This document shows, one piece after another, positions 44,881-48,107 of a stretch of DNA of 64,000 nt. Below the pieces are notes generated by a model. The model saw nothing but the letters and a program-made list of their open reading frames with translations. It searched no databases and was not told the origin of the DNA. This stretch comes from Halorientalis persicus (GTDB lineage: Archaea > Halobacteriota > Halobacteria > Halobacteriales > Haloarculaceae). How positions within the stretch are numbered: the stretch's first letter is position 1; each line of letters opens with the position of its first letter. Location of the stretch: the NCBI RefSeq assembly GCF_900110215.1, contig NZ_FOCX01000003.1:124001-188000 (forward strand), read 5' to 3'. Position numbers and translations under genes: made by a program.

Positions 44881-45771
44881 ATGGTGCGCGCACTTCTGGA
44901 CGTCGACGACCTGACCGGCGACGAACTGACGACGGTTCTCGACCGGGCCGCAGAGCTGAAGGCGGCCGACGACGGCCGGCAACCGCTGGTCGATCAGACG
45001 CTGGGTATGATCTTCGAGAAACCATCGACCCGGACGCGGGTCTCCTTCGAGACCGGGATGACACAGCTCGGGGGCCACGCCATCTTCCTGGGGCCGGACG
45101 ACATCCACCTCGGGCACGGTGAGCCGATCAAGGACACGGCCCGCGCGGTCTCGCGGTACGTCGATTTCATCATGGCGCGGGTGTTCGATCACGCGGACGT
45201 GGTGGAACTGGGCGAGTTCGCTACCGTCCCGGTGATAAACGGGTTGACCGACGACGCCCACCCCTGCCAGACGCTGGCGGATCTGCTGACGATCCGCGAG
45301 CGGTTCGGCGGGTTCGACGTGGACGTGGCCTGGGTCGGCGACGGCAACAACGTCGCCCAGTCGTTCGTCCTCGGCGCGGCGATGGCCGGTATCGACCTGA
45401 CCGTCGCCACGCCCGAGGGCTACGGCATCGACGACGACGTGCTAAAGCGGGCGGCGGGACTCGGCAGCGAACCCGAGACCACCCACGACCCCGAGGCGGC
45501 CGTCGAAGACGCCGATGTGGTCTACACCGACGTGTGGGTGAGCATGGGTCAGGAAGACCGGCGCGAGCAGAAACTGGCCGACTTCGAGGGGTTCCAGGTG
45601 ACCACCGACCTGCTCGGGGACCGGCCGCTGATGCACTGCCTGCCAGCCCATCGCGGCGAGGAGGTCACGGACGAAGCGCTGGAGAGCGAGAATTCGATCG
45701 TCTGGGATCAGGCGGAGAATCGGATGCACGCCCAGAACGGCCTGCTGGTGTGGCTTGGTGAGCAAGCGTAG
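44881..45771 (+). CDS. argF: Ornithine carbamoyltransferase
   Basis: A 296-residue transferase that makes citrulline. The carbamoyl-phosphate loop FEKPSTRTRVSFE is at residues 45-57, HPCQTLADLLTI and the ornithine loop VWVSMGQE follow, then MHCLPAHRGEEV. It ends NRMHAQNGLLVWLGEQA. The DNA for this last stretch, from 45712, is repeated twice more downstream, with each extra copy ending in its own stop. The enzyme itself is intact. Last gene of the arginine operon. Confidence 0.94.
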   Translation: MVRALLDVDDLTGDELTTVLDRAAELKAADDGRQPLVDQTLGMIFEKPSTRTRVSFETGMTQLGGHAIFLGPDDIHLGHGEPIKDTARAVSRYVDFIMARVFDHADVVELGEFATVPVINGLTDDAHPCQTLADLLTIRERFGGFDVDVAWVGDGNNVAQSFVLGAAMAGIDLTVATPEGYGIDDDVLKRAAGLGSEPETTHDPEAAVEDADVVYTDVWVSMGQEDRREQKLADFEGFQVTTDLLGDRPLMHCLPAHRGEEVTDEALESENSIVWDQAENRMHAQNGLLVWLGEQA

Positions 45772-46080
45772 CAGCGGCCACGAACGGAGTGAGTGGCCGC
45801 TTTTTCGCCCACGTTTTTGCGGCGAGTGGTGCGCGCAGCGCACCCGAGGCGGAAAAAGGTGGAGGCGGAGAACCGGATGCACGCCCAGAACGGGCTGTTG
45901 GTGTGGCTGTCCGAGCAAGGATAGCATCGGCCACGAGCGGAGCGAGTGGCCGCTTTTTCGCCCACGTTTTTCAAGGAGTGGTCGCGCGAAGCGCGACCCG
46001 ACGCAGAAAAAGGTGGAGGTGGCGAACCGGATGCACGCCCAGAACGGCCTGCTGGTGTGGCTTGGTGAGCAAGCGTAGCA
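45712..46080 (+). repeat. Threefold argF 3'-end repeat with two palindromic elements
   Basis: Three 62-bp copies of the argF tail lie at 45712-45773, 45865-45926 and 46019-46080. Each codes NRMHAQNGLLVWL and ends in TAG. Copies 1 and 3 differ by only a few bases; copy 2 has synonymous changes (GGGCTGTTG for GGCCTGCTG) and ends SEQG. The spacers, 45774-45864 (91 bp) and 45927-46018 (92 bp), are related palindromic elements: hairpin with arms GGCCAC/GTGGCC, TTTTTCGCCCACGTTTTT, a second hairpin (GGTGCGC-GCA-GCGCACC or GTCGCGC-GAA-GCGCGAC), then GAAAAAGGTGGAG. The layout is tail-element-tail-element-tail. Confidence 0.85.
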
Positions 46081-48014: not shown

Positions 48015-48107
48015 CGAGCGCGCGCCGGCGGCGCGCGCTCGGCCTTTTTCCCCAAGTTTTTGCGCAGGGGGGTGCGCCCCGCGCACCCCCCTGACGGAAA
48101 AAGTGGG
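48015..48107. repeat. Composite palindromic element (copy D)
   Basis: Hairpin 48015-48041 (arms CGAGCGCGCGCC/GGCGCGCGCTCG), then CCTTTTTCCCCAAGTTTTT, hairpin 48065-48093 (arms CAGGGGGGTGCG/CGCACCCCCCTG plus centre) and GGAAAAAGTGGG. Same order and spacer sequence as the elements at 1420 and 45774. It fills the space between two convergent stop codons and its T runs could serve as terminators on both strands. Confidence 0.7.

Follow-up and report, generated by a model that had tools for sequence, protein, structure and literature searches.

Hairpin elements behind haloarchaeal genes and the repeated gene ends that accompany them

The hairpin structures of about 90 bp that lie behind argF in Halorientalis persicus are probably non-autonomous elements that insert at gene 3' ends with a long and variable duplication of the gene tail, and that are spread and reshuffled by homologous recombination in these tails. 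As a rule, a mobile element either carries an enzyme or imitates an element that carries one. This structure appears to spread across an archaeal order by keeping a spare end of its target gene on either side. We analyzed a stretch of 64,000 nucleotides (contig NZ_FOCX01000003.1, positions 124,001 to 188,000; hereafter the window) and compared its elements with those in other genomes of the order.

The repeated tail in the window comes from an ornithine carbamoyltransferase-type ORF, which, following a preliminary description of the sequence, we take to be argF. Behind this gene, three 62-bp tails alternate with two palindromic elements of 91 and 92 bp in the order T1-E1-T2-E2-T3, with a period of 153/154 bp (Table 1), in agreement with the preliminary description. 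The first and third copies, described there as nearly identical, have 3 differing sites, all within the first 11 bases. Between T1 and T2 there are 9 differences in 62 bases, of which 5 fall on third codon positions; the translation of T2 is NRMHAQNGLLVWLSEQG followed by a stop. T3 is composed of a T2-like first part (AACCGG) and a T1-like remainder. The closest argF gene body to that of the window is found in genome G003 (559/599), the argF tail of which is identical to T2 at 58/59 positions and to T1 at 53/59, and E2 is identical at 89/91 aligned bases to the final element of the H. regularis argF array. By these comparisons, the window array is a mosaic, as expected of an array recombining with the gene of another lineage through the tails.

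Table 1. Positions of argF, its tails and the hairpin elements in the window
Feature	Position	Strand	Basis
argF, ornithine carbamoyltransferase-type ORF, source of the repeated tail	44881-45771	+	ORF and translation
T1, functional argF tail with stop	45710-45771	+	sequence comparison
E1, element, 91 bp	45772-45862	+	fold, H2 core model, dispersed copies
E1 hairpin H1	45773-45801	+	fold; T-run between H1 and H2
E1 hairpin H2, terminal inverted repeat CCCACGTTTTT/AAAAAGGTGG	45809-45862	+	fold, H2 core model
T2, second argF tail with its own stop, haplotype near other Halorientalis tails	45863-45924	+	
E2, element, 92 bp	45925-46016	+	fold, match to H. regularis element
T3, third argF tail, mosaic	46017-46078	+	sequence comparison
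Further H2 element copy, without detectable tail repeat	48045-48105	+	

Each element in the window consists of a hairpin directly behind the stop codon (H1), a T-run (CTTTTTCGC) and a second hairpin (H2) with the arms CCCACGTTTTT and AAAAAGGTGG. E1 and E2 fold far better than shuffled DNA (z of -5.6 and -4.0, respectively). Compensatory changes were found across the H2 copies, with both sides changed in 7 of 17 pairs; covariation between subfamilies is also seen in the terminal arms (CTAAATTTT..AAAATTTAG and CCGAGCTTTTT..AAAAAGGTCG). The right end of the element is fixed exactly at GGTGG, and its total length is about 90 bp. H1 is followed by TTTTT, and the median distance from the stop codon to the T-run is 31 bp. 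The repeated part includes H1 at some loci, which makes it uncertain where the mobile unit ends on the left. With 91 bp and no coding capacity, the element is too small to encode its own enzyme, a point which the preliminary description had already made. A search of Rfam assigned the element to no family, the single chance match being far below its threshold. The T-runs behind stop codons make it plausible that the element acts as a transcription terminator; a simple terminator scan, the loop limit of which is shorter than the H1 loop, gave no match. At three loci (L164, L251, and L111), other palindromes are nested in or beside H2 and enlarge the element to 150-250 bp.

Copies of the element are dispersed, which together with the folding shows that the pattern did not arise by chance. 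BLAST located it at 26 places in the window genome, a covariance model built from 40 copies detected about 62 distinct copies there, and at least one match (E 1e-5) was present in 95 of the 117 sampled genomes of the order, the richest carriers being Haloarculaceae. To see how general the tail repeat is, 109 copies with the canonical core and right end were surveyed by matching the 260 bp that precede the element against the 160 bp that follow it and counting direct matches scoring at least 30; the copies were picked by an exact pattern, and the survey therefore favours canonical copies. The upstream gene tail was directly repeated behind 48 of the 109 elements, against none in the inverted control and about 2 matches expected from wrong pairings, some of which paired homologous loci. 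In the window genome, where the sample is free of the canonical-pattern bias, a tail repeat was found at 13/62 copies (10 loci), with 0.7 expected. Other families of the order also have it (9/15 in f6, a count including L274, which is probably a paralogous alignment, and 3/5 in f10). The tail repeat at L125 proved to be an alignment of paralogous genes and was dropped. About half of the element copies are without a tail repeat. Where it exists, the repeat starts 0-11 bp behind GGTGG and extends over a variable length of 26-100 bp (median, 58 bp) to its stop, and in the scored cases a same-strand reading frame ends shortly before the element. Tail repeats occur at about 30 gene families, including argF, gyrA, and hisH, and several of these families have them in two or more genera, the tail being the local one in every case. 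The expectation that the palindrome accompanies gene tails generally, in this genome and in other haloarchaea, was thus borne out, and an element specific to argF was rejected.

The same arrangement is present in complete genomes, for example at argF of Salinibaculum litoreum and Halosimplex aquaticum and in an array of 10.5 perfect 171-bp tail-plus-element units behind one gene of S. litoreum (L219, 1192-2994). Misassembly, which the preliminary description wished to see excluded, is therefore unlikely and was discarded as the cause of the pattern. The ortholog of the S. litoreum gene in the window genome (C62:105128) has a T-E-T-E-T array, and argF of H. regularis has a T-E-T-E-T-E array. 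The hisH array of the window genome, T-E-T-E-T, is split over two contig ends (C82:149107, L009, and C65:94583, L010), so that L009 and L010 are one array. The split is caused by an insertion sequence inside the middle tail, the haplotype of which is that of H. regularis. Apparent repeated tRNA 3' ends in the window genome have a variant element, CCCAAGTTTTT..AAAAAGTGGG, next to them (L182, C77:8943-9004), but this locus is ambiguous because an inverted match is also present.

The junctions behind the element bear on how it reaches a new gene. At 11 of the 17 independent junctions whose recognisable copy begins 4 bases in, three source bases are followed by one extra pyrimidine (8 C and 3 T). 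The three-base match at the right junctions has a p value of 1.5e-16, and the extra pyrimidine is a frameshift in the right copy at 11 independent loci. No microhomology between GGTGG and the target was seen at the junctions (mean of 1.8/5 matches, about 1.5 expected). As read from the junction sequences, this fingerprint resembles the product of a specific joining step that adds one untemplated base more than that of chance end joining.

We propose that the element of H1 and H2 inserts just behind the stop codon of a gene in one orientation, so that the last 26-100 bp of the gene, including its stop, would flank it left and right (gene-T1-E-T2-flank). A new gene would first be joined by a reaction at the foot of H2. 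The tails would then serve as homology arms. Recombination in them could amplify or remove the element and homogenise the tails, and T1-E together with the 5' part of T2 could enter alleles of this gene that lack the element in other species. The invaded gene would thereby gain a foreign tail, and its native tail would be displaced behind the element, so that the hairpin and the gene end appear to pass between species together. A more far-reaching version, which we put forward tentatively, is that of a new minimal element, the hairpin of which joins gene 3' ends by a dedicated reaction, homes via the duplicated-tail arms into the corresponding gene of other species through ordinary recombination, and swaps the tail of that gene in the process. 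The dedicated reaction refers here to the exact element end, the three copied bases and the one untemplated pyrimidine.

An alternative is ordinary transposition in which a host or IS enzyme works in trans and makes very long and variable target duplications, all mosaic tails being produced by later general recombination. The terminal inverted repeats that covary between subfamilies, the fixed right end, the direct repeats, the empty sites described below, and the junction fingerprint are all compatible with this explanation. However, to our knowledge, target duplications varying between 26 and 100 bp are not known for prokaryotic transposases, and the window genome has only two matches to Y1 transposases. 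Among the 24 candidate left ends lacking a near right end in the fetched loci, there was no full-size relative with the same ends, and the sole same-ends match in those loci (L062, 136 bp) is only slightly longer than the element. We consider transposition in trans somewhat unlikely, although it is the strongest competitor. A viral vector was set aside, as the viral contigs of IMG/VR gave no exact match to the canonical element pattern.

Comparison with relatives shows what the loci look like when the element is absent. At L020 and at L026, two other Halorientalis genomes in each case have the gene followed directly by the native flank, without the element or the second tail, and at the Haloarcula loci L070, L103, L115, L096, and L136 several species are empty. 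These clean empty sites mean that the element and the second tail are an insertion, at least at those loci, and the sister species suggest that the element-free alleles at L020 and L026 are ancestral. At L236/L265 (G070), an element-linked gene end is followed by a short remnant of the element flank and the last bases of the native tail, which looks like an imprecise loss of the element.

The codon signature of the two tails was examined over 47 comparisons, some of them from related loci. Differences between T1 and T2 fall 22/24/94 on the three codon positions, so that the third position holds 94 of 140. This share of 0.67 compares with 0.445 expected under neutral decay of T2 (T1 evolving only silently and T2 freely), with a p value of 6e-8 that is only a guide because of the related loci. 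The right copy keeps a stop in 38 of the 47 comparisons (counted before one false alignment was removed), and in 12 it has a different stop codon. The third-position excess and the stop codons that were swapped yet kept mean that both tails derive from working genes, which upholds the earlier view that copy 2 had evolved as a working tail.

Local tandem duplication, in which polymerase slippage or unequal crossing-over at the hairpins copies T-E in place and T2 is a decaying relic, is improbable as the general explanation. Hairpins promote slippage, and S. litoreum and H. regularis have perfect arrays; local amplification also occurs, and the arrays are not all made by insertion. However, relatives have the order x-T-flank without the element, T2 runs into the native flank with no trailing element, and neither the third-position excess nor the two-step stop swaps are expected of decay in place. 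In addition, T2 of the gyrA-type gene in Haloarcula sebkhae has the native end of another species. The preliminary description had named simple local duplication as the finding that would speak against it; this process is seen in some arrays, but as a purely local event it was rejected for the loci with empty sites.

Which of the tails is foreign differs between loci. The clearest case is a gene of Haloarcula that is, judged by its C-terminal sequence, presumably gyrA. Five carriers have the common junction GGTGG/AAGC (GTGG/AGC in G076), and their left tails are related, mostly ending in VVPA.TE or a close variant. The identity of T1 averages 0.90 between carriers, compared with about 0.80 between carriers and empty species, and reaches 0.987 between H. 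sebkhae and G070, whereas in every pair the gene body (the preceding 400 bp) has an identity of 0.90-0.96. The right tails vary from species to species, and the 3' end of T2 in H. sebkhae is identical at 32/32 positions to the native gene end of an empty species (G012). These identities indicate that the functional tail travels with the element and that the native tail lies behind it. In H. sebkhae, this gene has an odd left (functional) copy and a more native right one, the reverse of the preliminary reading of copy 2 as the arrival, and weaker signs at L103, L096, and in the window point the same way.

The other loci are more varied. At L103, L115, L096, and in the window, most relatives resemble T2 more closely than T1; at L026 the situation is reversed, T1 being the more native copy, and L070, L136, and L020 show no clear difference between T1 and T2 in closeness to relatives. 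An etfA-like gene has local, nearly identical copies on both sides and a junction common to three species, and both tails are likewise local and nearly identical at L020, L136, and argF of H. regularis. Foreign import is therefore not general. Of the earlier suggestion that the palindrome brings a foreign tail along, it stands that tails of different lineages end up together, but the copies are each gene's own tail. Crossovers at different points of the tails account for the patterns at gyrA, at L103, L096, and the window, at L026, at the loci without a difference, and at the etfA-like gene. The hairpins themselves are about as alike for the same gene across species (0.696) as for different genes of one genome (0.688), so that orthologous spread is not visible in the hairpin itself, and gene-specific hairpin lineages were rejected for want of a signal in this comparison.

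Two further explanations fare worse. A Campbell-type integration, in which a tyrosine recombinase would insert a small circle of element and tail with the tail as the att site, would have the same outcome as integrases acting at gene 3' ends, the incoming tail restoring the gene and displacing the native one (PMC8371274). However, integrases are site-specific, whereas about 30 unrelated targets are used here, the tails have no common core sequence, and the 91 bp have no coding capacity; we regard this origin as very improbable. That T2 was retained for a function of its own (as a reserve tail, decoy, or antisense target), as its third-position bias and kept stops might suggest, is hardly credible, since T2 lacks the context of a start codon, is often frameshifted after 3 nt, varies in length, is missing in sister species, and looks recently exchanged, not old.

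If insertion followed by recombination in the tails is the true course of events, small palindromes have a way to move from one species to another that does not call for a transposase every time. The native tails behind the elements would then be fossils, a readable record of interspecies recombination, and conserved genes, gyrA and argF among them, would exchange their C-termini as units. There would also be practical interest in enzymes able to join the ends of hairpins to chosen positions in genes.

We compared the element with the known small palindromic repeats and with elements that integrate at gene ends. SPRITE repeats of Streptococcus pneumoniae are likewise small and non-coding, consist of a hairpin and a T-rich tract, and are enriched at gene 3' ends, but they belong to a bacterium, have another sequence, and have no described tail duplication (PMC3049150); target duplication could not be established for them (PMC3049150). 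The haloarchaeal element has the same shape, with a stem and then a T-rich tract near gene 3' ends. REP, BIME, and REPIN sequences with RAYT are also abundant extragenic palindromes in tandem and mosaic arrangements; REPs differ in their 5' GT(A/G)G head, the associated RAYT gene, and the lack of a described repeated gene tail (PMC2817692). The 5' GTAG/GTGG head is absent from our element, which has GGTGG at its 3' foot and the reverse strand of which begins with CCACC. The PATEs and SMRs of Haloquadratum are, like it, haloarchaeal, transposase-free, and palindromic, but PATEs are without terminal repeats in inverted orientation, and no target duplications arise from either PATEs or SMRs (PMC3119063). 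The element has both inverted repeats and tail duplication, and so departs from the PATE/IS605 type.

MITEs share the terminal inverted repeats, the flanking direct repeats, and the absence of a gene, but the direct repeats of the element are long, variable gene tails (PMC10969869). It is short and non-coding with terminal inverted repeats, CCCACGTTTTT/AAAAAGGTGG and also CTAAATTTT/AAAATTTAG, while its tail copies of 26-100 bp are not a short target duplication of fixed length. The RYYYAAC and GTTRRRY motifs of integron attC sites were absent from E1 and E2 on inspection by eye. Integrase-borne elements at gene 3' ends have the same outcome, an intact gene with a copy of the gene end on the other side, but they encode an integrase and use one specific target, whereas the hairpin element has 91 bp and is found at dozens of genes (PMC8371274). 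The resemblance to such elements drawn in the preliminary description holds for the tail on both sides and the restored functional gene; the element has no integrase of its own, and its targets span about 30 families.

In the open-access literature, to which the search was confined, we found no described equivalent of the tail-duplicating element. As at least one defining feature of REPs, PATEs, MITEs, and integrative elements is lacking in each case, we place it as a variant among the small palindromic mobile repeats, although there is a fair chance that it merits a class of its own. By shape, it is nearest to SPRITE, REP, PATE/SMR, and MITE sequences, and by outcome, to the integrase-borne elements that restore the gene.
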